In this document: positions 37,864 through 50,633 of the stretch, one piece after another | How positions within the stretch are numbered: position 1 is the stretch's first letter | How the letters are laid out: the number at the start of each line of letters is the position of its first letter | Assembly (NCBI GenBank): GCA_937998865.1 | Contig: CALLBR010000020.1 | Span: 1 to 59,050, forward strand | Reading direction: 5' to 3' | Source: an uncultured bacterium | GTDB lineage: Bacteria; Nitrospirota; Thermodesulfovibrionia; Thermodesulfovibrionales; Thermodesulfovibrionaceae | DNA length: 59,050 nucleotides | Made by a program: the position numbers and the translations under genes | Notes under the pieces: model-generated | Told to the model about the DNA's origin: nothing | The model's input: the letters and a program-made list of their open reading frames with translations, nothing else | Databases searched by the model: none

Positions 37864-38634
37864 TTATATCTTCGGGTGAATTAAATTATATCCGTCAAAT
37901 TTTATTCTAATTACCTCCACACCATAAACTTTTTTAATGTGCGTTTCTGAGATGATCTCATTAGATCTCCCTTCAGCAATTTTCAATCCAGAATTAATAA
38001 GAATCAATTTATCGGAAAAAATACCTGCCATATTTGGGTCATGAAGAGTCATTAATATAACTAAAGAATTGTTTATGGCAATCTCTTTAATCTTCTTCAG
38101 AACAACTATTTGATTTCTAAAATCAAGATGACTTGTAGGCTCATCAAGAAGCATAATAGGTGTATCCTGTGCCAAAGCTCTTGCAATAAGAGTTAGCTGA
38201 CGCTCTCCACCACTGATTTTAGTGTAGGATTTGTCCTTTAAATGAAAAATTCCAACTATATCTAAACATTTTTCAGCAATTTCATAATCCTTCTTGCTGG
38301 GAGTTGAGAAAATTCCTATATGACTTGCTCTGCCCATTAATACTACATCAAAAACTGAATAAGGAAAGGGAGGCTCATGCTCTTGAGGTACAATGGATAA
38401 AATTTTTGCTCTCTTTGAATAGGAAAGATCCCTTATGGAACTGCCATCGTAGATAATATCGCCTTTTGAAGGCTTCCAATATCCTAAAATACACTTAAAA
38501 AGAGTTGTTTTACCAGAACCATTAGGACCTAAAATTGTTGTTATTTGACCTTTGTAGGCATCAAAACTTATGTTTTTGAGCAAGTCCTCTTTTGAGTCTT
38601 TATGTCTGAAACTTAAGTTCTTAATCTCTAACAT
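37864..38634 (-). CDS. ABC transporter ATP-binding protein (FecE/BtuD type)
   Basis: The 256 residues carry Walker A GPNGSGKTTLFK, the ABC signature ISGGERQLTLIARAL and Walker B IMLLDEPTSHLD. The subgroup serves iron-siderophore, heme and B12 importers. The start abuts the permease stop (1-bp overlap). With the permease and binding protein it forms a complete importer. Confidence 0.93.
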   Translation of the reverse strand: MLEIKNLSFRHKDSKEDLLKNISFDAYKGQITTILGPNGSGKTTLFKCILGYWKPSKGDIIYDGSSIRDLSYSKRAKILSIVPQEHEPPFPYSVFDVVLMGRASHIGIFSTPSKKDYEIAEKCLDIVGIFHLKDKSYTKISGGERQLTLIARALAQDTPIMLLDEPTSHLDFRNQIVVLKKIKEIAINNSLVILMTLHDPNMAGIFSDKLILINSGLKIAEGRSNEIISETHIKKVYGVEVIRIKFDGYNLIHPKI

Positions 38635-39635
38635 TACTTACCCCATGCCTCTTTCCCACCACGCTTCATAAGATAGATGAAAAAGGGCGCACCTGTTAAA
38701 GCAGTAATTATACCAACTGGTATGTCAAAGCTTGTAAGAGTTCTTGAAATTGTATCTGCTGCTATCATAAAGGCTGCACCTGCTGAAATACTTAATGGTA
38801 CTAAGGTTTTGTGGTCTGGTCCTGTAAGCATTCTCACAAGGTGGGGTACCATAAGCCCTACCCAACCAATAATGCCACATAAAGATGTGGCTGTAGCAAC
38901 CGCCAATGTAGAAAAGGCAATAAAAAGTATTCTTTCTCTCTTTACATGTACTCCCAAGGCTTTTGCCTCTTCATCTCCCATACTCATAACATTAAGTCTC
39001 CATCTCATAAGAAAGATAGGTAATACTCCAGCTAAAAATCCAAGGAGAGAAATTTTTACAGCTCTCCAGTCCGCAAGACTAAAACTTCCCATAAGCCAAT
39101 AAACAATGCTTTGAAGTTTGTGTGGATCTACAAGAAATTTCACTATGGAAACCATGGCTGTAAAAAAGGCTGAAACAATAATTCCTGATAAAATCAAAGG
39201 AAGCCGAGAAACCTCTCCTTGAAACCTTGCAATACTATAAGCAATAATTACTGAAATAATGGCAAAGATAAAAGCTGTAAACTGCAGTGGAAGAAAACTT
39301 AAAAATCCAATAGTAATGGCGCATCCGAAGGCTGCACCAGCGGAAATTCCAAGGATGAAAGGATCTACAAGGGGATTACGAAATATTCCTTGAAGTGTAA
39401 CTCCAGCACAGGAAAGAGCTGCACCAACAATTCCTGCAAGAAGGACCCTTGGAAGTCTTATATCAAAAATTATGGCTTTTTCTGGAATGTCTCCTATTTC
39501 AAAAAAGTGGAAGCCTTCATTAATAAGAATCTTTATTACCATAAGAGGACTAACATCATAAGCACCAAAAAAGAGTGCAAACCAAGCAACTAAAAAAGGG
39601 GATAGGATTATAATTACTACTTTAATACTCTTCAT
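38634..39635 (-). CDS. FecCD-family ABC permease (B12/heme/siderophore type)
   Basis: The protein has about 333 residues and about ten membrane helices. The FecCD landmarks RLPRVLLAGIVGAALSCAGV, GIFRNPLVDPFILGISAGA and the coupling-helix region GWVGLMVPHLVRM are present (some shown in part). The annotated start is the ATG at 39635; a TTG ten codons earlier is possible. No strong ribosome binding site is seen for either, as expected with a 14-bp overlap with the upstream binding-protein gene. Confidence 0.92.
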   Translation of the reverse strand: MKSIKVVIIILSPFLVAWFALFFGAYDVSPLMVIKILINEGFHFFEIGDIPEKAIIFDIRLPRVLLAGIVGAALSCAGVTLQGIFRNPLVDPFILGISAGAAFGCAITIGFLSFLPLQFTAFIFAIISVIIAYSIARFQGEVSRLPLILSGIIVSAFFTAMVSIVKFLVDPHKLQSIVYWLMGSFSLADWRAVKISLLGFLAGVLPIFLMRWRLNVMSMGDEEAKALGVHVKRERILFIAFSTLAVATATSLCGIIGWVGLMVPHLVRMLTGPDHKTLVPLSISAGAAFMIAADTISRTLTSFDIPVGIITALTGAPFFIYLMKRGGKEAWGK

Positions 39636-40620
39636 ATTGTCTAACTTTGTAATAGGAGATTCCAAATACTTTTTTATAAAAATTATCCACTATTTCTTCA
39701 AAATTTATGTCTTTAAATACCTCAGGATAAATTTTCATTGCCATATAGAGGGCAATAGGTGCAACACGAGGTGACCAAGTAGACCACTTAGGAAGTTTAT
39801 AAACTTCACGATTCTTTACAGCCCTTATTTGGTTCCATTGAGAATTATTATAGAGCCATGACTCATTGTATCCTGCATTACCCCATATAAAAATAACATC
39901 AGGATTCCATTGGAATATTTTTTCCATTGAAATGTCAATGTAATTATTATTTATTCTCTCCGCTGCATTGATTGCTCCGGTAATCTTTATGATTTCATTA
40001 GTTATTCCTATTCCGCCAGAAACTCTTGTAGGAGTATGAACTAGATGTAAAACCTTTTTTCTTTTTTCAGCCGGGATTTTTTTAACTCTATCAGTAATTA
40101 ACTTTAAGATTTTATCCATCTCAAAAAATACTTCTCTTACTCTCCTTTCTTTCCCGAAAATTTTTCCGTGTAATCTTATCACATCATAAAGCTCTTTTAA
40201 ACTCTCTGGATAAATTCCAATTACATTCAGACCTTTTTTTTCTAAAAAATATATCACTTCAGGATTATATGTCCAAGTTATTACTATATCAGGATTCAGT
40301 TTCACTATGGACTCAACATTAATATCAGTTCCTGTACCTATCTTTGGTCTAACATAAGAGGGTTTATCACTTATTAATGCCTTATAAAGCCCGCATTCTT
40401 CTTCAGCCCATCTTGAAACACCCACAACTTGATTCCATAAATTTAAAGCTGGAATAAGTTCATAAGTTATTACAATAACAGCCCTATTCACTGGAGTGTT
40501 TATGCTAATTTTTCTATTTAATTTGTCAGTTAGATTAATACTAGAAGCATTGGCAATTCCTGCTATAAGAATCAAATTAAATATGATCATTATTGATAGA
40601 TTCCTAAACCTATTATGCAT
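39622..40620 (-). CDS. Periplasmic binding protein, BtuF/Fe3+-chelate type (copy 1)
   Basis: The 332-residue protein has a signal peptide (IMIIFNLILIAGIANASS). The two-lobed TroA-like fold has landmarks RAVIVITYELIPALNL, IVKLNPDIVITW and WNPDVIFIWGNAG. It would deliver the substrate to the FecCD permease downstream. The direct upstream neighbour is the CobN-like chelatase, so the cargo is probably a tetrapyrrole or a metal chelate. A second, diverged paralogue lies at 46800. Confidence 0.88.
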   Translation of the reverse strand: MHNRFRNLSIMIIFNLILIAGIANASSINLTDKLNRKISINTPVNRAVIVITYELIPALNLWNQVVGVSRWAEEECGLYKALISDKPSYVRPKIGTGTDINVESIVKLNPDIVITWTYNPEVIYFLEKKGLNVIGIYPESLKELYDVIRLHGKIFGKERRVREVFFEMDKILKLITDRVKKIPAEKRKKVLHLVHTPTRVSGGIGITNEIIKITGAINAAERINNNYIDISMEKIFQWNPDVIFIWGNAGYNESWLYNNSQWNQIRAVKNREVYKLPKWSTWSPRVAPIALYMAMKIYPEVFKDINFEEIVDNFYKKVFGISYYKVRQYEEY

Positions 40621-40646: not shown

Positions 40647-43600
40647 CTACTTTAAAACTTTATCCTCATCCATAATATCTTCTTCAGTATTCATTATTAA
40701 CTGGAGTAATTTATCCATTTTCTCTTCATCCACTCGCCAATAACCTCTTTTTGCAGATTCAAACAAAAGCTCAGCCATTTTAACCGTTGCATAAGGATTG
40801 TTTTCATAAAGTTTATTTCTCATATCATCGTTGAAAATAAACTTATCTGCTATGTCATCAAAGATCCAATTTTCAACTTTTCCAGTGGTGGCAGCAAAAC
40901 CAAGAAGATATTCAACTCTATCTTTTATTTTCTTTGCACCATGAAAATTATGCTTTAACATTCCCTCTATCCATTTAGGATTGAGGATTCTTGTTCTAAC
41001 AGCTCTCTCTATGGATAATTTTAGATCTTCTGCAAAGACATCCTCTTCCGTAGAGTCTATAACCATAATTTCAGCTTTTTGTCCCTTCTTATCTTGAACA
41101 GTTCTGGATAAACCTCCTAAAAATTCATAGTAATGATCCAAGTCTGTTACCTCATATTCAGTGTTATCTCTTTCCTGAGTTACTATATCAATGAGTTTTA
41201 CGAGATTTGAAAAGGCTTTCTCGTTCTTTTCTATTTTTCCCTTAAAATAAGCATAACACATGCTTTCCTCATAGCTTTTTACTAAGTCCCTTTCATCTTT
41301 CCAGGCACTACTTTCAACCAATGTTCTCATGGATGTAGCATACTCTGTGGGAGAGGGACCAAAAATTCTGGCAAGGGCATGATCATCTAAATTATTCCTT
41401 AGCTGAAGAGAATGCTTTCTGACGAAATTCCTTTCAGGAGGTTCATTTAATACTGCAACCATTTTTATGGCTCTGTTTATTAGGTCAATATGGGTACCAA
41501 AGGTATCCCTAAAAATTCCACAAATAGTTATCAAAACATCTATTCTTGGCCTATTTAGTTCCTCTAAAGGGATAACTTCAAGCTCCTTTAACCAAGGATT
41601 CTTTTTATGTTTTATCCTTACTCCAAGAAGATTAAGTATAGTGGCAATCGTATCGCCGCCTGTTTTCATAGTTTCAAATCCCCAAAGAATAATCCCAACA
41701 CTCTCTGGAAATTTTCCGTATTTTTTCAAATAAGACTCAATTAATAGATCAGCAGCTTTCCTACCCCTCACCTCTGCTGCAATAGTTGGAATGAGTCTTG
41801 GATCAAAGGCATACATGCCTCTACCAGAGGGATAAACTTCTGGATCTCTAATAGGATCACCTGCTCGAGCTGGGAGGATATATCTACCCTCTAATGCGAG
41901 TAACAGAGTGTCACTCTCTGATGATCGATAAATATTCTCTACAATCTTTCTTACAAAGTCTTGGTATTCTTTTTGTAGCCCCTTAATTTGATTATTTTTA
42001 AGCAAATCCCTTATTACCTCTTTTGCTTGATTTTCTATTTCGGTGGCTAATTTAGTTTCCTTTACTTTATCCCAATCAAGCCCATTATTATTTGCTACTA
42101 ATTTAAGAATTGAGGGAAATTCACGGTCAATTCGTAAAACACCAAGGAGATAATCAATCATTTCTTCTTCCCCTAATTTTTTATCCATTACATGTAAACC
42201 ACAAGGAATAAGCCTCCTTTTCATTCTATATAGTTCTTTTCTTATTTCAGAGACATCTGAGGGTAGATGTAGCTCTGAAGCAATTTCTTTAATAACTTCT
42301 AAAGTTTTTTCGTCCTTTTTTTCCTCGTATTGATTCAGTAAATCTTCTAAAATTATATATTTTTCATAAAGTCCTGAAGTTTTCATGGGCGGAGATGCAT
42401 GGGAAATACAAAGGGCATAAGAACGTCTCTTAGCAATTGTTGACTCTGATGGATTTCCAATCCAGTAATAATAAATATGTGGCATATTTCCAATAAGGAT
42501 ATCTGGAAAACACTCTGAGGAAAGGGCAATCTCTTTACCTTTAGTAAATTCCAAAGTTCCATGCATCCCAAAGTGTATTATTGCGTGAGCTTGAAAAACT
42601 CTCTCTAAGAAAAAATAATAAGCTAAATATTGATGATGAGGAGGCAATTCTTTGTCATGATAGGCTTTATCAACATCCTCATGAACACCTCTTGATGGCT
42701 GAATTCCAATAAAGATATTTCCTAAATATACCCCTGGAATTAAAATATTGCCCTTTTTGTCAACCATTATATTTCCTGGAGGCTTTCCCCAATGTTCAAT
42801 AACATTTTTTTTGACATTATCAGAAAGATTATCAAACCAAGAGAGATATTCAGAGAAAGGTATCCTAATGGAAGGCATCTTATCAGTATACTTTGGACTA
42901 TTAAGTATTGCATTGGAAAGAAAGATTTCTTTAACATCAGTGAATGATTTGTCTAATTTATACCCTCTTTCTTTTAATCTTTCTAAAAATATCCTCAAAC
43001 TTTCAAAAACATCCAAATAACCAGCACTGGCTAAGTTTTCCTCTCCTGGAGGATAGTTGTAAGTTAGAATGGCAATTCTTTTTTTCTCATTAGGAGTATT
43101 TCTCAAAATAATCCAATTTTTGATCCTTTTAGCAAGTTTTTCTACTCTATCCTCTAATGCTTTGGGTTCTTTTATTTTACCTATAAGGGGATCATCAAAA
43201 CTTTTTAACCCTGAGATAAAAATAGGTTCAATGGCTCCGTCAAGCTCTGGTAAAGTAACAGCAATTACAATCTCAATTGGATTTAATCCCTCTTTGCTAA
43301 TCCTCCATTTTTCTAAGTCAGTAGAGGAAGCTCTAAGCCCACATAAAAGAGGAATATCTAACTCCTTTAAAAGCTGATAGGTAGGTTCTGGTTCACCTCC
43401 GTAGGGACCACCATGAATTCTGAAGTATTGTAAGTTCAAAAGTAAATCAACTTTTAAATTTTTGAGATATTTTAGGAGGGCTTCAATATTAAACTGTACC
43501 TTAGATGCAATAAAAATCAAATTTAAATCATTATGCAAGTACTCAAAAAGTGAATCTGCCATCACCTTACATTCGTTGAAGTGCATGCCACCATACATTA

Positions 43601-44276
43601 AAACTGCCACTGTATTCTTTTCAGGATTGTAGGGAAGAGCTTTTTTAAATTCGTGGATGTCATAAAAAAAGCCTCTTTTAGGTAAGTATATTCCATACTC
43701 GAAAATTCTTGGAGGTGGAATTTTATTAATACCTTTCACTCCTGCATATTCCTTCAGAAGCATGAGAATAAGACTCTTTATATTCTCCGGATCCCCTTCA
43801 TTGTAATATTGCTGAGCTAAAACCCAGTTCCGCATATCTTTTAATGTTCCGAAGGGAAGAATTTTACCAAGTTTTTCTGTTAACTCGGAGAATTTCTTCA
43901 CTTTAAGATAAGTTTGAAGATTAAACTCTTTTTCTTCACCTTTAAAGATCATCTCACCTTTAAATTTTCCCATTTTTAAAAGCTTCCAGATATGTTGTCC
44001 ACTTGCCACCAAAACAACCACTGTTTTTTCTTTTCCTTCAAGGAGAAGGTGAAGTTTACGGCTTAATCTATTGTCTCCTCGTATGTCAATAAGCAAAATA
44101 TGAGAATTTTCTATTTCCTCTTTTAGTTCATCGAGGGAAATATCAGGATTTTCATAATCATCAAGGTAAATTTTCTTTACTGCTACAATATTGCCATACT
44201 CTTCTCTTATCTGTTTAACAGCCTCTCTAATGGCTGTCATGTCGTTGATAGTGGTTAAGGCTAAGATTTTTTCCAT
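40647..44276 (-). CDS. CobN/BchH-type chelatase large subunit
   Basis: The 1209 residues are somewhat short for CobN (about 1275). Family blocks are clear: HFGMHGTLEFTKGKEIALSS near residue 570, GNPSESTIAKRRSYA, LITICGIFRDTFGTHIDLIN, NEPPERNFVRKH, RIFGPSPTEYATSMRTLVES, and the C-terminal FHGAKKIKDRVEYLLGFAATT. The central motif has Met where most CobN and BchH proteins have Thr (HFGTHGTLEW). CobN subunits insert Co2+ with CobST, BchH inserts Mg2+ with ChlI/ChlD; here ChlI/ChlD-like genes are in the same operon. Flanking TonB receptor and importer genes suggest work on an imported tetrapyrrole. The related HmuS of Bacteroides heme-uptake loci is a precedent for demetallation. Metal and direction are not readable from sequence. 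Confidence 0.88.
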   Translation of the reverse strand: MEKILALTTINDMTAIREAVKQIREEYGNIVAVKKIYLDDYENPDISLDELKEEIENSHILLIDIRGDNRLSRKLHLLLEGKEKTVVVLVASGQHIWKLLKMGKFKGEMIFKGEEKEFNLQTYLKVKKFSELTEKLGKILPFGTLKDMRNWVLAQQYYNEGDPENIKSLILMLLKEYAGVKGINKIPPPRIFEYGIYLPKRGFFYDIHEFKKALPYNPEKNTVAVLMYGGMHFNECKVMADSLFEYLHNDLNLIFIASKVQFNIEALLKYLKNLKVDLLLNLQYFRIHGGPYGGEPEPTYQLLKELDIPLLCGLRASSTDLEKWRISKEGLNPIEIVIAVTLPELDGAIEPIFISGLKSFDDPLIGKIKEPKALEDRVEKLAKRIKNWIILRNTPNEKKRIAILTYNYPPGEENLASAGYLDVFESLRIFLERLKERGYKLDKSFTDVKEIFLSNAILNSPKYTDKMPSIRIPFSEYLSWFDNLSDNVKKNVIEHWGKPPGNIMVDKKGNILIPGVYLGNIFIGIQPSRGVHEDVDKAYHDKELPPHHQYLAYYFFLERVFQAHAIIHFGMHGTLEFTKGKEIALSSECFPDILIGNMPHIYYYWIGNPSESTIAKRRSYALCISHASPPMKTSGLYEKYIILEDLLNQYEEKKDEKTLEVIKEIASELHLPSDVSEIRKELYRMKRRLIPCGLHVMDKKLGEEEMIDYLLGVLRIDREFPSILKLVANNNGLDWDKVKETKLATEIENQAKEVIRDLLKNNQIKGLQKEYQDFVRKIVENIYRSSESDTLLLALEGRYILPARAGDPIRDPEVYPSGRGMYAFDPRLIPTIAAEVRGRKAADLLIESYLKKYGKFPESVGIILWGFETMKTGGDTIATILNLLGVRIKHKKNPWLKELEVIPLEELNRPRIDVLITICGIFRDTFGTHIDLINRAIKMVAVLNEPPERNFVRKHSLQLRNNLDDHALARIFGPSPTEYATSMRTLVESSAWKDERDLVKSYEESMCYAYFKGKIEKNEKAFSNLVKLIDIVTQERDNTEYEVTDLDHYYEFLGGLSRTVQDKKGQKAEIMVIDSTEEDVFAEDLKLSIERAVRTRILNPKWIEGMLKHNFHGAKKIKDRVEYLLGFAATTGKVENWIFDDIADKFIFNDDMRNKLYENNPYATVKMAELLFESAKRGYWRVDEEKMDKLLQLIMNTEEDIMDEDKVLK

Positions 44277-44292
44277 TTTCTCTATGAATCCC

Positions 44293-46548
44293 TTAAAACT
44301 TTAATGTAATATCTGCAAACCATGATCTTCCTGCTGCTTTATGCCATGTATAGTACTTTCTGTCAAAAATGTTCTCCACTGAAAAACCGAGCTTTGCAAA
44401 TTTTGTTATTTGATAAGCAATTCTTCCATCTACAACAAAATAGGGATCAAGAGAATTAAATACATTATTTATTTTGTCAGAATTATCATCATTTAGATAT
44501 CTCTTAGCAGCATATCTACCAAGAAGAGTTGCTGAAAATCCTGACTTGTCAATCTCTACTCCTGAGTTAACAGTCCAAAGTGGAATGTAGGTGAGTCTAC
44601 ATCCAACAGTTCTTGGAGATGCCTCATTTTCCTTTATCTCGGAATCAGTATAGGTAATATTTGCAAATAATCTTAGCCATTTTTCAAATTTCTGTTCAAA
44701 TTCAAACTCTATTCCACGGGATTCTGCTTTTCCCACATTAACAAGTTGTTTTCTTTGTTGACCTAAATCCCTATAATAGATTAAATCCTTTAAATAGTTT
44801 TCGAAATATGTTAAAGAGATTTTTGATCCTTTCCAAAGCTTTTGTTCAATTCCTAAATCCCAAGATATGACTTTTTCTGGCTCAAGATCAGGATTTCCCA
44901 TCCGCAGTATTTTATCTGGAGGAATAAAGTCTCTATAAAGTTCATAAATTGTGGGAGGTCTGAAAGCCTTTCCAATTGATCCACGCAAAGTGGTATCTTT
45001 AAAAGGTTTATATACCAAGGCAAATTTCGGACTAAAAGAAGAAACAGATCTTGTAGGATATGATCTGGGATAGCCAGATTGTCCCACCTTGTCAATGTAA
45101 CCATCATATGTCTTCCACCAATCTTGCCTAAAACCTAAGTAGGCTGTAAGATTATGAATTATCATAATTTCATCTTGAATGAAAAAGGAATATGTTCTAC
45201 CTTTTCCCCTGAATTCTTGCGAAAGAGTGGTGGTTGATTTTTCATCTCTCCAATCCCTTAAATATTCTTCCTTTGTATTTCCTTTATCTTGTCTAAAGGA
45301 ACCACCAAAAGTAAGGATTTGATTTGTAAAAATGGGAAGACTAAACTGTATGTCTATCATGTATGAGTCTGCAGGAGTATTAGTTACAGTAGCACATTGT
45401 TTGGGATCTGAACCGCAACCAAATCTTGTTGCGCTACTTAAGGGAGTTACATACCAATCTCTTTCAGTATGAAAATAGGAGAGTTTTAATTTCATCCTTA
45501 GATCTTTCCATAAATTGCTTTCAAAATCTAAGGCATATATATTTTGAATTCTTCCTCCTCCACCAGATAGAAAAGTATTTTCATCTACTCTTCTGGGCGG
45601 AGGAGAAACTCCATAACTCCACACAGCATTTCCAGATTGGTCTCTTAAATAAGTGTGAGGTTCGTTATTATTTTGCTCATAACGATTTCTCACAATGGAA
45701 AACCCTATCTTCGTATCTTTCGTAAAATCATATTGAAGTTTAAAGGTTATTCCATCATCCCACCAAAGGTTATCTCCTCTATCACCAATAAGAAAAGCCC
45801 TTTCGCCTTTTGGTGTTGTAGTATTTTCATATCCAAATATATTTGGTGGAGGCTGGAATCGTCTTTCATCTATTACATTTAACTCCATGGGAAAACCATT
45901 TGTACTCTGAAAGCCATAACTCAGAAATAGGTTTAGTTTATCCCATAGTTTATCTCCATAGGAAATATAGAATCTCCTTAGATCATCCCATGCCTCATTC
46001 CTTTGCCAACTGGAACCGTATCCTGACTTAAAGACAAATTCCCTTTTCTCTGGCATCTTAGTAATAAAATTTATAACTCCACCCATGGCATGACCACCAT
46101 AAAGAGAAGAAAAAGGACCTTTTACAACTTCAACTCTTTCAAGATCCTCTGGATAAAATCCTCCAAATCTTGCATGACCTGTAGTAGGATCATTTAAGAC
46201 AACTCCATCTCTAAGCATAAGAACTCTTGGTTGTCCAGAAATTCCTCTTATAGTTATCGGTGAGAGACGGGTTTCCATTATTCCTCTTAGTCTTTCAATA
46301 TACAACCCAGAAGTGTCATTTAATGCTTGATCAATTGTTTTAGGTGCTTTAAGCTCAATTCTTTCCTTTGAGACAACACTTACACTGGCTGGAGCAGACT
46401 CTACCTCTTTTTCAGTTCTTGTAGCAGTTACAACAATTTCACCTAAACTTGTCTCCTCTAAGTCAGCTTCTTTAGACTTCTGCTCAGCCCAGGCATGATT
46501 AAAAAATGAAAGAAAGAAGAATAAAATAAAAATTAAAAAATAAAACAT
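44293..46548 (-). CDS. TonB-dependent outer-membrane receptor 1
   Basis: The 751-residue protein has a signal peptide ending near AWA (about residue 21), a TonB box EIVVTATRTEK and a plug domain with RGISGQPRVLMLRDGVVLND and VEVVKGPFSSLYGGHAMGGVINFIT (partial). A 22-strand-type barrel ends in Trp-Phe-Ala-Asp-Ile-Thr-Leu-Lys-Phe. FRPP followed by NPDLEPEK is reminiscent of the FRAP/NPNL motifs of heme receptors, though NPxL is common in the wider family and no His lies between them. AAGGAGGG precedes the ATG. It is 16 bp upstream of the chelatase gene and preceded by the attenuator leader copy 1. A metal-tetrapyrrole cargo is inferred. Confidence 0.92.
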   Translation of the reverse strand: MFYFLIFILFFFLSFFNHAWAEQKSKEADLEETSLGEIVVTATRTEKEVESAPASVSVVSKERIELKAPKTIDQALNDTSGLYIERLRGIMETRLSPITIRGISGQPRVLMLRDGVVLNDPTTGHARFGGFYPEDLERVEVVKGPFSSLYGGHAMGGVINFITKMPEKREFVFKSGYGSSWQRNEAWDDLRRFYISYGDKLWDKLNLFLSYGFQSTNGFPMELNVIDERRFQPPPNIFGYENTTTPKGERAFLIGDRGDNLWWDDGITFKLQYDFTKDTKIGFSIVRNRYEQNNNEPHTYLRDQSGNAVWSYGVSPPPRRVDENTFLSGGGGRIQNIYALDFESNLWKDLRMKLKLSYFHTERDWYVTPLSSATRFGCGSDPKQCATVTNTPADSYMIDIQFSLPIFTNQILTFGGSFRQDKGNTKEEYLRDWRDEKSTTTLSQEFRGKGRTYSFFIQDEIMIIHNLTAYLGFRQDWWKTYDGYIDKVGQSGYPRSYPTRSVSSFSPKFALVYKPFKDTTLRGSIGKAFRPPTIYELYRDFIPPDKILRMGNPDLEPEKVISWDLGIEQKLWKGSKISLTYFENYLKDLIYYRDLGQQRKQLVNVGKAESRGIEFEFEQKFEKWLRLFANITYTDSEIKENEASPRTVGCRLTYIPLWTVNSGVEIDKSGFSATLLGRYAAKRYLNDDNSDKINNVFNSLDPYFVVDGRIAYQITKFAKLGFSVENIFDRKYYTWHKAAGRSWFADITLKF

Positions 46549-46582
46549 CTCAACCCTCCTTAAATTGATAAATAATGATCTT

Positions 46583-46694
46583 TCTCTCTTCAGAGAGGAT
46601 TGAGACTCTTCATGAGCCTTAATTCATAAAAAAAGCCTTGGATGGGATTCTTTCCCTCCAAGGCCTTCATGACCTTAAGTGACCCTTCTTGGGT
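46583..46694 (-). ncRNA. Structured attenuator leader, copy 1 (candidate riboswitch or RNA-binding-protein target)
   Basis: The conserved block starts at the predicted transcription start (A at 46694) and runs for about 112 bases into the leader of TonB receptor 1. On the RNA strand it can form hairpin H1 ACCC-AAGAA-GGGU, H2 AAGGUC-AUGAA-GGCCUU (46676-46660), terminator T (46664-46635) with loop AAGAA and a 7-U tail, H3 AGGCUC-AUGAA-GAGUCU (46619-46603) and H4 CUCUC-UGAA-GAGAG. The 3' arm of H2 is part of the 5' arm of T, so H2 and T are mutually exclusive. I see no cobalamin, heme-, moco-, TPP or T-box consensus. A near-identical copy precedes the other TonB gene. Confidence 0.75.
46628..46664 (-). 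terminator. Intrinsic terminator inside leader copy 1
   Basis: GCCTTGGA pairs with TCCAAGGC and GGGA with TCCC around a 5-base AAGAA loop, with one bulged A. A run of seven T follows. It lies between the promoter and the TonB receptor gene, the position of an attenuator. Confidence 0.85.
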
Positions 46695-46700
46695 AGGAAT

Positions 46701-46730
46701 ATTATAAAAAAGATAAAATCTTTTTGTCAA
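46701..46730 (-). promoter_or_regulatory. sigma70 promoter of leader copy 1
   Basis: Minus strand: TTGACA (46730-46725), 18-base spacer, TATAAT (46706-46701). Both boxes are perfect consensus. Seven bases further lies the A that opens the conserved leader. Confidence 0.8.
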
Positions 46731-46799: not shown

Positions 46800-47834
46800 T
46801 CAATTTATAAGTTTCTTTCCATATAAAAAATTAATTATCTTTCTTTTTTCTTCTTCCAGTTCAAAAGTATAAATTTCGGGATAAGCTGCTTTTGCCATGA
46901 ATTTCATAGCATACAAAAATTTCAATGTCCACAAGTCAAATATAAATGTCTCATCAAACTGATAAATCGAATTTCTCCTAACAGCAGTAATTGTTCTGTA
47001 TTGTTTATTTTTCCTTATATCCTCAGGTTTTAAAAATTTTGAATGCCACATAACTATAACGTCTGGATTATGAAGGATAAGCTTTTCCATAGTTAAAACC
47101 TTAGATTCTCCCTCTATATCCCCACATATGTTCTTAGCACCAATCTTAAGTATTATCTCATCAACGATACTTCCTTTGCAGGAGGTCTGAAGAAAATTAA
47201 GCTGAGCCCAACTGTAGAATAATTTCTTAGGAGACCTTATTTTTAAGGCAATTTTTTCAATATCTGTAATTTCTCTCTTTACAAAATTTATTAATTTTTC
47301 TGCCTGACTCTTTGCACCAAGCATAACTCCAAAATCACTTATCTCTTTAAAGATGTCTTCAATTTTTGTTATAAATACGGCGTAAACAGGAATGCCGATT
47401 CTCTCAAGTGTTTCGATTACATCTGTCTGATTCGCCCATATTATCACTAAATCTGGCTTTATTGATATTATTTTCTCTAAATTTACCGATTCCCAGTTTC
47501 CAACTGCTGGAATTTTTCTTAATCTTATTCTTTCGTCTAAAAGAGAATAATATTTAAAAGTTTCACTATAATAGTAACCTTCATCATAAACATTTGTAGG
47601 TATACCAACAAGCTTTTCTTGCTTTCTCAACATGTAAATTCCTGTAAGAGCGCTTTCAATAAGGCAGACGACCCTCTCTGCTGGTCTTTTTAGTTTAATT
47701 GTTTTTTCCCTGAAATCATGGACGACGATATCTGCTGCTACATGCTTTGGAAAGAAAAAATAAAGAATTAAAAATATTGATACCATGAGGGAGCGGTAAG
47801 AGCCGCTCCCAAATTTTAGAAGTTTAGTTCCCAT
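46800..47834 (-). CDS. Periplasmic binding protein, BtuF/Fe3+-chelate type (copy 2)
   Basis: The protein has about 344 residues with the TroA-like fold: ERVVCLIESALTGIYML, IISIKPDLVIIWANQ, HNPDVIVMWHSKF. I chose the ATG at 47834 because it gives a signal peptide with a basic n-region (KLLKF and YRS) before SLMVSIFLILYFFF. This start overlaps the TonB gene by 19 bp; another ATG at 47786 would leave no positive n-region. A perfect 8-bp hairpin lies between the two candidates. No permease or ATPase accompanies it, so it may share the importer at 37864-39635 with copy 1. Confidence 0.82.
   Translation of the reverse strand: MGTKLLKFGSGSYRSLMVSIFLILYFFFPKHVAADIVVHDFREKTIKLKRPAERVVCLIESALTGIYMLRKQEKLVGIPTNVYDEGYYYSETFKYYSLLDERIRLRKIPAVGNWESVNLEKIISIKPDLVIIWANQTDVIETLERIGIPVYAVFITKIEDIFKEISDFGVMLGAKSQAEKLINFVKREITDIEKIALKIRSPKKLFYSWAQLNFLQTSCKGSIVDEIILKIGAKNICGDIEGESKVLTMEKLILHNPDVIVMWHSKFLKPEDIRKNKQYRTITAVRRNSIYQFDETFIFDLWTLKFLYAMKFMAKAAYPEIYTFELEEEKRKIINFLYGKKLIN
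47789..47810 (-). repeat. Perfect hairpin at the TonB2/binding-protein junction
   Basis: GGGAGCGG-CTCTTA-CCGCTCCC (minus strand) is a perfect 8-bp GC-rich stem lying 5 bases after the TonB receptor 2 stop and overlapping the signal-peptide codons of the next gene. No T-run follows directly, so it may reduce downstream translation or stabilise the upstream mRNA. Confidence 0.55.
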
Positions 47835-49828
47835 CTTAGCATAGCATTGAATCCAGGATCCAGAAATTGCCAAGGCATTTCGTATTTTCTATCAAAAAGA
47901 TTGTTTACTTCAAGAATAAGGTTGGAGTAATACTTTTCTGATCTGAAAATTTCTTTTCTTATATTGAAGTTAACGGTAGCATATTTTCCAAAACTTTTTC
48001 TATTCGTTTTATCAGTGCTGTCATAGTATTTTCCTACATATTGTATATAGGGAGAAACTTTAAATTCAAGGGGAAGATCTGCTGTAAATCCTGCATTCAC
48101 TACAAATTCTGGCACAAAGGGGATATCACTACCATCTTGATTCTTATCTAAAGAGTTTTTCACTTTCGTATCAGCAAGAGTAAGGTTTGAAAACCATTTA
48201 AAATTATCACTTAAGAAATGCTGAACCTCAAGTTCTGCGCCTGTTGTATATGCTTTTCCAGCATTAACTGACTGAGATTGAGAGGGATTATTGCTAACCA
48301 CATTCTCCACAATAGTATCCTTAGTAATATGATAAAAGGCTCTCAAACTAAAATATAAATTATTCATAGCCCACAAGTCTGTTCCAAGGTCAAAACTATA
48401 GCCTTTTTCTGGCTTTAGGGTAGGGTTAGGTAGCTGACCATTCTTGCCAGGAACACCTCTGTCAGATTCCTTCAGTGTCCCGCCTACAGATTTTGCTGAA
48501 GGTACAAGATAGCTTGACCCAGCATTGGCAAAAATACCAAACTTATCAGTAAAATTATATCTCAATCCAGCTGTCCATGTAAGTTGATCCCACGATTTTG
48601 AAGATATACCAGGTTCAACTTCTCCCAACAGGTCATATTCATGTTTTGTGTAACTGTATCTTAAACCTGCTCTAAATACCCATTTATCAATTATAAGTTT
48701 TTCCTGTGCATATATGCCAAAACTCTTGGCACTAACGTCATTTCCAATTTTTTTATTACCTCCTTTTTTTGCATATGTTTCATAGGTTGAAAACTGAGCA
48801 TCAATTCCAAAGGTAAGAATGCTTTTATCTAAATGTTTGTAGATTAAAGATATGTCAATGGGAAAGATGTTTTGTTTTACTCCATCTTCCTCTTTTAAGC
48901 TCAAATCATTTGGATAATTATCTTCCTCCCAAGAGCGATTATAATATCTATAACCAGATTTTATATTGAGAATAAAATCCTTAAAAAGAGAAGAGGAAAA
49001 ATTGAGATTTATCACATCATACTGATGGTCATAACCTCTATTAGGTCTCCCAGCATCTCCATCATGCTTTGTATGATGAACAAAAAGTGAAATCTTAGTA
49101 TCAGGTGTAAAGAAATAAGTTGTTTTAATATAGCCCTTGATTTTCTTATATTCTGGATCATCTATCATACTAAGCCATGAAGGAACTGTTCCATAATTGG
49201 TGTAATCTGATTGTTCAAAGTTTGCACCGAGGAAAAAATTAAAGGGACCGGCATTTCCCTCATGATAAACTCTTGCATTTATTGTATTCCATGTTCCGTA
49301 GCCAAGAGATATGTTTGTAAGAGGCTTTTCAATTTTTTCCTTTGTTATTAAATTAGTAATTCCAGCCAAAGGAGTTTCATTTCCTGCAAAATCCATAGTC
49401 ATATAATTGGGATATAGAACAGAAGCAGGTCCTCTATGAACTTCAATTCTTTCAAGATAAATAAAATCTAAACTCATTGGATCTACAAATGAATCGATTG
49501 GAAGTCCGTCTAAGAGCCAACCGTTATATTTAGGACCTAAGCCACCATATGAGCCCCAGTTTGCATCATTACGTGAAAGGGGATTTACAAAATTACCCGG
49601 AAGATATCTAAGCAATTCTGACAGATTTCTATTAGGAAGATTTATTTTCTCAATCTCTCTCTTTTCTAAAACATCAATTTTATGGGTCTGTTCTTGAGGT
49701 TTTTGCTCAATTTTTGATTCTGTAACAGTAACTTCCTGAAGTGTAAAATCATCCTCTTTTTCCTTAGAGTAAGCATAATTAAAGATAATAAACATAATAA
49801 GGATAATTAAAAACACTTTCCGCATCAT
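47816..49828 (-). CDS. TonB-dependent outer-membrane receptor 2
   Basis: The 670-residue protein has a signal peptide (FLIILIMFIIFNYAYS), a TonB-box region (LQEVTVTESKIEQ) and a plug with LLRYLPGNFVNPLSRNDANW and IEVHRGPASVLYPNYMTMDF. The barrel ends in Met-Leu-Arg-Trp-Glu-Leu-Asn-Phe. The plug is less typical than that of receptor 1: the usual RG motif is replaced by GGLGPKYNGWLLDGLPID, so the two receptors probably take different ligands. TAGGAGGAGG precedes the ATG. It is followed by a binding-protein gene and preceded by leader copy 2. Confidence 0.92.
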   Translation of the reverse strand: MMRKVFLIILIMFIIFNYAYSKEKEDDFTLQEVTVTESKIEQKPQEQTHKIDVLEKREIEKINLPNRNLSELLRYLPGNFVNPLSRNDANWGSYGGLGPKYNGWLLDGLPIDSFVDPMSLDFIYLERIEVHRGPASVLYPNYMTMDFAGNETPLAGITNLITKEKIEKPLTNISLGYGTWNTINARVYHEGNAGPFNFFLGANFEQSDYTNYGTVPSWLSMIDDPEYKKIKGYIKTTYFFTPDTKISLFVHHTKHDGDAGRPNRGYDHQYDVINLNFSSSLFKDFILNIKSGYRYYNRSWEEDNYPNDLSLKEEDGVKQNIFPIDISLIYKHLDKSILTFGIDAQFSTYETYAKKGGNKKIGNDVSAKSFGIYAQEKLIIDKWVFRAGLRYSYTKHEYDLLGEVEPGISSKSWDQLTWTAGLRYNFTDKFGIFANAGSSYLVPSAKSVGGTLKESDRGVPGKNGQLPNPTLKPEKGYSFDLGTDLWAMNNLYFSLRAFYHITKDTIVENVVSNNPSQSQSVNAGKAYTTGAELEVQHFLSDNFKWFSNLTLADTKVKNSLDKNQDGSDIPFVPEFVVNAGFTADLPLEFKVSPYIQYVGKYYDSTDKTNRKSFGKYATVNFNIRKEIFRSEKYYSNLILEVNNLFDRKYEMPWQFLDPGFNAMLRWELNF

Positions 49829-49926: not shown

Positions 49927-50040
49927 CTCTCTCTTCAGAGAGGATTGAGACTCTTCATGAGCCTTAATTCATAAAAAAAAGCCTTGGATGGGATTCATTC
50001 CCTCCAAGGCCTTCATGACCTTAAGTGACCCTTCTTGGGT
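49927..50040 (-). ncRNA. Structured attenuator leader, copy 2
   Basis: It matches leader copy 1 almost base for base from its first nucleotide (A at 50040, seven bases after the -10 box) to the H4 hairpin. The main differences are one extra base in the T-run (8 T), one base in the terminator loop (AUGAA here, AAGAA in copy 1) and two extra bases in the H4 tail. Every stem is unchanged and the loop change keeps the A-A/U-G-A-A pattern. Sequence outside the block, including the promoter spacer, is not conserved between copies. This argues for selection on the RNA. Confidence 0.75.
49973..50010 (-). terminator. Intrinsic terminator inside leader copy 2
   Basis: It has the same stem as in copy 1 (GCCTTGGA/TCCAAGGC plus GGGA/TCCC), loop ATGAA, followed by eight T. 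Confidence 0.85.
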
Positions 50041-50552: not shown

Positions 50553-50608
50553 TTGACAATCAAGTTTTCATCTGATATAATTTAGCAATAAATTTCATCT
50601 GATATAAT
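50553..50608 (+). promoter_or_regulatory. Consensus promoter with tandemly duplicated -10 region
   Basis: TTGACA (50553-50558), 17-base spacer, TATAAT (50576-50581) is a perfect sigma70 promoter. A 27-bp unit starting TTTCATCTGATATAATTTAG is repeated in direct tandem (about 50566-50619), which places a second TATAAT at 50603-50608. It faces the molybdoenzyme operon. Confidence 0.75.
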
Positions 50609-50633
50609 TTAGCAATAAAAAAATTTTATAACT

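Follow-up and report, generated by a model that had tools for sequence, protein, structure and literature searches.

We describe a family of leader RNAs in Nitrospirota whose core is a switch hairpin with an AYGAA loop that overlaps an intrinsic terminator, together with a partner hairpin carrying an (A)NGNA loop. The best explanation for this element, and in our judgement a probable one, is a tandem-hairpin attenuator of a nickel-uptake regulon that is read by a factor acting in trans. At the level of sequence, the analysis establishes the hairpins, their conserved loops, the covarying and mutually exclusive helices, a complementarity to the Shine-Dalgarno (SD) region, the presence of nickel/cobalt-uptake genes downstream and the exclusion with the nickel repressor NikR. 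The literature excerpts that we retrieved contain no description of such an element and, as far as Rfam 15 and these excerpts show, it is undescribed.

Tandem hairpins and their loops in Thermodesulfovibrio

The window, a stretch of 59,050 nucleotides from an uncultured member of the Thermodesulfovibrionaceae, carries two near-identical leaders on the minus strand (copy 1, 46694-46584; copy 2, 50040-49929; 93% identical), each of which begins ~7 nt downstream of a -10 box and contains H1, H2, a terminator, H3 and H4 in this order. Direct reading places the -35 box of copy 1 (TTGACA) at 46725..46730 and its -10 box (TATAAT) at 46701..46706, both on the minus strand, and since H1 begins ~7 nt downstream of the latter, the transcript has this hairpin at its 5' end; TTGAC was seen by eye in 21 of 23 long leaders. 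In copy 1, all on the minus strand, the partner hairpin H1 (ACCC-AAGAA-GGGU, 46682..46694) is followed by the switch hairpin and candidate antiterminator H2 (AAGGUC-AUGAA-GGCCUU, 46660..46676), the intrinsic terminator (46628..46665), and a second pair formed by H3 (AGGCUC-AUGAA-GAGUCU, 46603..46619) and H4 (CUCUC-UGAA-GAGAG, 46584..46597). The corresponding positions in copy 2 (49929..50040, minus strand) are 50040-50028 for H1, 50022-50006 for H2, 50011-49973 for the terminator, 49964-49948 for H3 and 49942-49929 for H4. An earlier note on this DNA had placed H1, H2, the terminator and H3 at 46694-46603, and all four were found there on the minus strand, whereas the fifth small hairpin that it mentioned, with a UGAA loop, is H4 and lies outside this range, at 46597-46584. 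Upstream of copy 2, at 50560-50620, there is a short direct tandem repeat, TTTATTGCTAAATTATATCAGATGAAA, in about two copies, and a decayed leader relic retaining H3, H4 and the terminator end is found near a contig end of the same assembly (G000:C7:45216-45324, L003/L066).

Scanning both strands of the window for tandem hairpins (stems of at least 4 bp, C-G closed (A/U)NGAA or NGAA loops, gaps of at most 50 nt) returned six tandems, all six inside the two leaders, and none were obtained in 60 dinucleotide shuffles or for the other 63 possible loop cores. Further leaders were collected by a DNA search of 61 relatives and with a covariance model, R1, built from 22 leaders, which gave 23 long leaders in 14 of the 16 Thermodesulfovibrio genomes; the remaining two, G006 and G011, yielded weaker matches only, and L047, L048 and L093 are, as judged by eye, shorter forms. 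Six matches of the DNA search (L017, L018, L019, L027, L029 and L030) were dropped as short AT-rich chance matches. An open frame follows each of the 21 long leaders checked, and the frames recognisable by eye are those of receptors.

Alignment A1 of 22 genus leaders was made without the relic and without L013, a long leader (1439-1602) whose H1 and H2 are separated by an insert of ~50 nt and one more hairpin. In this alignment the H1 loop reads ACGAA in 12 leaders and AAGAA in 10, the H2 loop AUGAA in 20, ACGAA in one and AAGUA in one, and the H3 loop AUGAA in 20 and ACGAA in two, while the H4 loop is mostly UGAA, sometimes AGAA or AAGAA, and is lost in one degenerate leader (three cells parsed by eye). 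Standard pairs occupy 96.2% of the H1-H4 cells. H4 is paired in 93.6% of cells, with both-side changes in two pairs; H3 is paired in 98.2%. Across the genus leaders neither H2 nor H3 has a both-side change, so that the evidence for their pairing is invariance, together with the covarying counterpart in class D. The terminator loop, which the earlier note had counted among the shared loops, varies freely in relatives, and its AAGAA and AUGAA forms in the window are thus a coincidence; nor is the UUAAGG entry said to be common to H2 and H3 conserved. For H1-H4, free variation of the loops, the finding that would have told against the idea of repeated recognition loops, was not seen: these loops outlast changes in stems, linkers, order and downstream genes across Nitrospirota families. 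That they are recognition elements, ANTAR-like in logic, is therefore strongly supported by comparative data, although ANTAR proteins themselves are excluded as the general partner (see below). Two leaders of genome G013, L011 and L023, precede receptors of different types, yet leader and signal peptide are almost letter-identical before the sequences diverge, and the two seem to have been swapped as a cassette between receptor genes.

Exclusive helices at the terminator and the ribosome-binding site

The 3' arm of H2 is the 5' foot of the terminator, which makes the two structures mutually exclusive. In the genus leaders 95.0% of the terminator cells are paired and nine both-side changes are present, compared to 2.5 in shuffles. 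Alignment A4 comprises 20 distinct leaders from three families, reached via porin homologues, whose rows were picked by switch hairpin and terminator only, the partner loop playing no part in the choice. Here the terminator is paired in 91.4% of cells with 32 both-side changes versus 10.5 in shuffles, and the hairpin pair in 90.6% of cells with 17 versus 5.3. Column 3 of A4 has two alternative partners, column 15 in the hairpin and column 58 in the terminator, the pairs being A-U or G-C (6 rows) in both, and column 8, the Y of the loop, is matched by R in the 3' arm of the terminator in 18 of 20 rows. The possibility that the AUG in the H2 loop opens a leader peptide extending through the terminator was dropped on inspection by eye, because the reading frame is not kept between relatives.

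The second hairpin pair faces a different helix. In copy 1 the end of H3, the linker and the start of H4 together form a strand, GUCUCAAUCCUCU (46594..46606, minus strand), that is complementary over 13 bp to the SD region GGAGGGUUGAGAU (46547..46559, minus strand), which continues into the receptor AUG. With receptor starts taken as start codons, such pairing was found in 18 of 23 long leaders; the own mean is -19.06 kcal/mol versus -16.31 kcal/mol with partners permuted, and none of 20000 permutations was as strong. The linker variants CAAUCC, CAAACC, UAUGCC and UAUACC are compensated on the SD side, and pairing is poor at the own start in the other five long leaders, including window copy 2. 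The minimum-energy fold of the copy 1 leader contains both the terminator and the sequestering helix (-58.3 kcal/mol, z -5.23). From these complementarities, H3 and H4 are predicted to compete with a helix that hides the ribosome-binding site in the long form. The exclusivity of H2 and terminator, the SD pairing and the copy 1 fold thus place H1 and H2 against termination, and H3 and H4 so as to free the ribosome site. In L007, L009, L010 and L021 a repeat of the type GTCATCCTGAAGG...GGAATGACAGG is inserted between H4 and the ribosome site, with the long-range SD pairing retained.

Target genes, distribution in Nitrospirota and exclusion with NikR

Downstream of copy 1, and like it on the minus strand, lie genes for a TonB-dependent receptor (44293..46548; PF00593, PF07715), a CobN/BchH-like chelatase (40647..44276; PF02514, NCBIfam) and an ABC transporter with the Pfam domains Peripla_BP_2, FecCD and ABC_tran (37864..40620), and copy 2 is followed on the same strand by a second TonB-dependent receptor (47816..49828, domain match) and a periplasmic metal-binding-type protein (Peripla_BP_2, 46800..47873, domain match). 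Weak R1 matches proved by eye to be leaders of other genes of the genus. Twelve lie ahead of a methyltransferase, with the partner hairpin visible in eight and none seen by eye in four; seven in the genus, and one in the window's own genome, lie ahead of TonB; one precedes a receptor-methyltransferase-ABC operon, and a further target is the porin-NikKMLQO operon, whose members include CbiM, NikL and CbiQ according to NCBIfam. Class G (L092, ahead of mfd) may be chance. R1 E-values of ~0.01 would arise by chance in a few of 395 genomes, and L064 was accepted only since it heads a homologous porin-NikK pair and was later found by the second covariance model, R2.

Ten further leaders, with three CAUGAAG hairpins each, precede a monocistronic 19-residue Cys-peptide of the type MIKKVSGKxMPTCKCKGSC, which is possibly a metal-binding peptide; they include L080, L082 and L091, the last from the window's own genome (G000:C15 near 45850), and seven more. 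In this class F leader the third hairpin overlaps the ribosome site, and binding of a factor could therefore repress the Cys-peptide. Cobalamin riboswitches were found in 15 of the 16 genus genomes at other loci than this leader, and at eight of these loci the translated neighbours were a receptor of another type, CobU/CobT-type genes and MetE, not the gene set of the leader.

R2 was built from A4 and run on 395 Nitrospirota genomes, one per species and mostly drafts. It matched both window leaders and 128 of the 395 genomes (E<=0.01), in 77 of 170 genera, R1 and R2 both being built partly from sequences later counted. In 57 distinct phylum leaders the switch loop is ACGAA in 44, AUGAA in 12 and UUGAA in one; a partner hairpin with a C-G closed (A)NGNA loop accompanies it in 46, other patterns of the same shape occurring at most once, and the (A)NGNA loop is absent from five. 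For the genes outside the genus, 20 regions with 25 R2 matches, selected for spread over families, were read by eye: the matches head CbiM/NikM operons, UreH-like transporters, NikK-NikL, receptors, TonB-ExbBD, a His-rich frame and the same methyltransferase as in the Thermodesulfovibrio leaders, that is, mostly nickel/cobalt-uptake genes, with one match in L202 ahead of a cytochrome-like frame. Two nikK loci titled as other bacteria (L117 and L118, outside Nitrospirota) were inspected as well and showed no hairpin pair of this kind. Two or more attenuator units stand in series ahead of nickel-uptake genes in L147 (994-1130) and L215 (4048-4178), and L219 (G360:C15:20540-40539) is a nickel island with five switch-hairpin units that comprises a methyltransferase, receptors, a binding protein resembling NikA by eye, TonB-ExbB-ExbD and an ABC transporter.

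The element and NikR exclude each other in their distribution. In a survey published in 2009, fewer than half of the organisms with NikABCDE had NikR, from which regulation independent of NikR was inferred (PMC2667541, in excerpt). NikR was found in none of the 16 genus genomes, and NikR_C is present in 190 of the 395 Nitrospirota genomes: in none of the 91 with an R2 match at 1e-4 or better and in 190 of the other 304. Of the 128 motif genomes counted at E<=0.01, 12 carry NikR, all of them with weak R2 matches (1.9e-4 or worse). These counts are not corrected for phylogeny, and 103 of the 190 NikR genomes belong to one family, f29, but R2 found no match in any of those 103; the exclusion holds within families f2, f3, f13 and f15 and within genera g78 and g85. 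Among 13 genomes of f15 the UreH-like transporter was found in five, all motif-bearing, and in none of the seven that carry NikR, and in g78 and g85 leader and transporter occur together in motif-bearing genomes, the transporter being absent from the NikR-bearing congeners examined.

Proposed mechanism and comparison with known systems

We propose that the partner hairpin (loop (A)NGNA) and the switch hairpin (loop AYGAA) fold first, near the 5' end of the transcript. The terminator draws its 5' arm from part or all of the switch hairpin, and unless the hairpins are kept in place it would take over and transcription would stop. A factor recognising the loop pair would instead stabilise the switch hairpin, so that the terminator could not close and the uptake genes would be transcribed. 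In the long leaders the H3-linker-H4 strand would, unbound, pair with the SD region and AUG, and binding would leave this site free; the factor would thus be active when nickel is short, preventing termination and, in long leaders, freeing the ribosome site. The sign follows from the layout: the switch hairpin takes up a strand without which the terminator cannot form, so that stabilising the hairpin pair turns the genes on. Binding under nickel shortage is what uptake genes would call for, whereas direct binding of nickel would have the wrong sign. We infer that the factor is a protein of a new kind, not ANTAR, that it is probably a dimer and binds when free of nickel, and that the signal is nickel rather than cobalt. 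The constrained loop positions, the free linker, the occurrence of hairpins in pairs or triples and their swapped order look like recognition by a protein dimer. What speaks against a trans-acting factor is that it must have been gained wherever the element replaced NikR.

A rival reading is that the leader is a self-contained riboswitch in which the two loops dock and bind a small ligand, a metal complex or a metabolite, with no protein involved. The unit is small, tandem hairpins with like loops and a linker resemble guanidine-II (PMC5486947, in excerpt), and because leader and transporter are portable, travelling together in g78 and g85, this reading keeps a place, as a possible but doubtful one. 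Against it stands the sign: a formed hairpin means on, and free nickel, were it the ligand, would promote uptake at times of plenty. Moreover, the constraint in each hairpin extends to only about five loop positions, and the classes differ in how many hairpins they have and in what order, class F having three and class A two pairs. As to the signal, CbiM-type permeases and a CobN-like chelatase belong to the regulon, and its receptors resemble, below cut-off in every case, the models of haem, siderophore and B12 receptors, as would suit an element serving cobalt/cobalamin or general metal limitation. We regard this as unlikely, since the exclusion is with a nickel repressor, the NikK/NikL types are nickel-linked in most organisms (PMC2667541, in the part available) and in these genomes the genes under B12 riboswitches are different ones.

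An ANTAR-type protein would account for the two-hairpin antiterminator logic, which is the same (PMC3369931, in excerpt), but this reading is close to refuted: the loops are of 5 and 4 nt, not hexaloops with A1 and G4, and PF03861 is missing from nearly all motif carriers, with none in the 16 genus genomes and, among the other 81 confident-motif genomes, G025 alone positive and 0 of 80 above the cut-off (2 weak matches). H1-H4 could descend from one duplicated hairpin, and the 93% identity of the window copies is in keeping with recent duplication. We nevertheless give next to no credence to a mere coincidence of A-rich loops or such a duplication, since the same loops recur on altered stems in many gene classes and families, no other loop pattern occurs in more than one of 57 leaders and shuffles gave no tandems.

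We lean, if only slightly, towards the broader view that the element represents phylum-wide RNA-based control of nickel uptake that has repeatedly replaced NikR in Nitrospirota, its AYGAA and (A)NGNA loops serving either as the target of a nickel-responsive RNA-binding protein of a new class or as sensors of nickel status in their own right, and that in Thermodesulfovibrio the same reader is used twice per leader, on transcription and then on translation. The element is a concrete candidate for NikR-independent control in many genera of one phylum, and it comes with a list of target genes that includes the conserved 19-residue Cys-peptide, a clean NikR exclusion and defined loop positions. A protein reader of the loops would represent a new family of RNA-binding metal sensors, whereas sensing by the RNA itself would make the element a new metal-status riboswitch.

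In the window, Rfam returned nothing but one tRNA at gathering score, and 10 leader loci searched at E<=1 gave four sub-threshold matches only, the best of which, to CsrC in L080 (25.7 bits versus a cut-off of 61), was taken as chance. CsrA/Rsm targets have GGA in the hairpin loop; the core of the conserved loops here is GAA or GNA instead. The NiCo (czcD) riboswitch, RF02683, is likewise a cis-acting RNA related to nickel/cobalt, but it forms a four-way junction ahead of efflux genes, unlike the tandem hairpins ahead of uptake genes described here, and it had no match in the window at gathering score or in the 10 loci at E<=1. The cobalamin riboswitch (RF00174) matches other loci of the genus, not this leader locus. 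Guanidine-II (mini-ykkC, RF01068) shares the two linked tandem hairpins with near-identical loops (PMC5486947, in excerpt) but has ACGR loops where (A)NGNA is found here ahead of metal-uptake genes, and it likewise gave no match in the window at gathering score or in the 10 loci at E<=1. The NikR repressor regulon comprises the same kinds of target operons (NikMNQO, NikKMLQO), but NikR is a DNA-binding protein acting at promoters and does not co-occur with a confident match to the RNA (0/91). Closest in logic are the ANTAR targets (eut, nasF, amiE), which have two short stem-loops with like loops of conserved identity, the terminator-overlapping one acting as antiterminator, a linker of 5-12 nt in the case studied, and recognition of the hairpin pair by a protein dimer (PMC3369931, in the part available). 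The leader shares with them the two hairpins of which one overlaps and excludes the terminator, and differs in its pentaloop AYGAA and tetra- or pentaloop (A)NGNA in place of hexaloops, in its nickel genes and in a second pair placed to act on translation, a double use in one leader, at the terminator and then at the ribosome site, that would be an unusual design.
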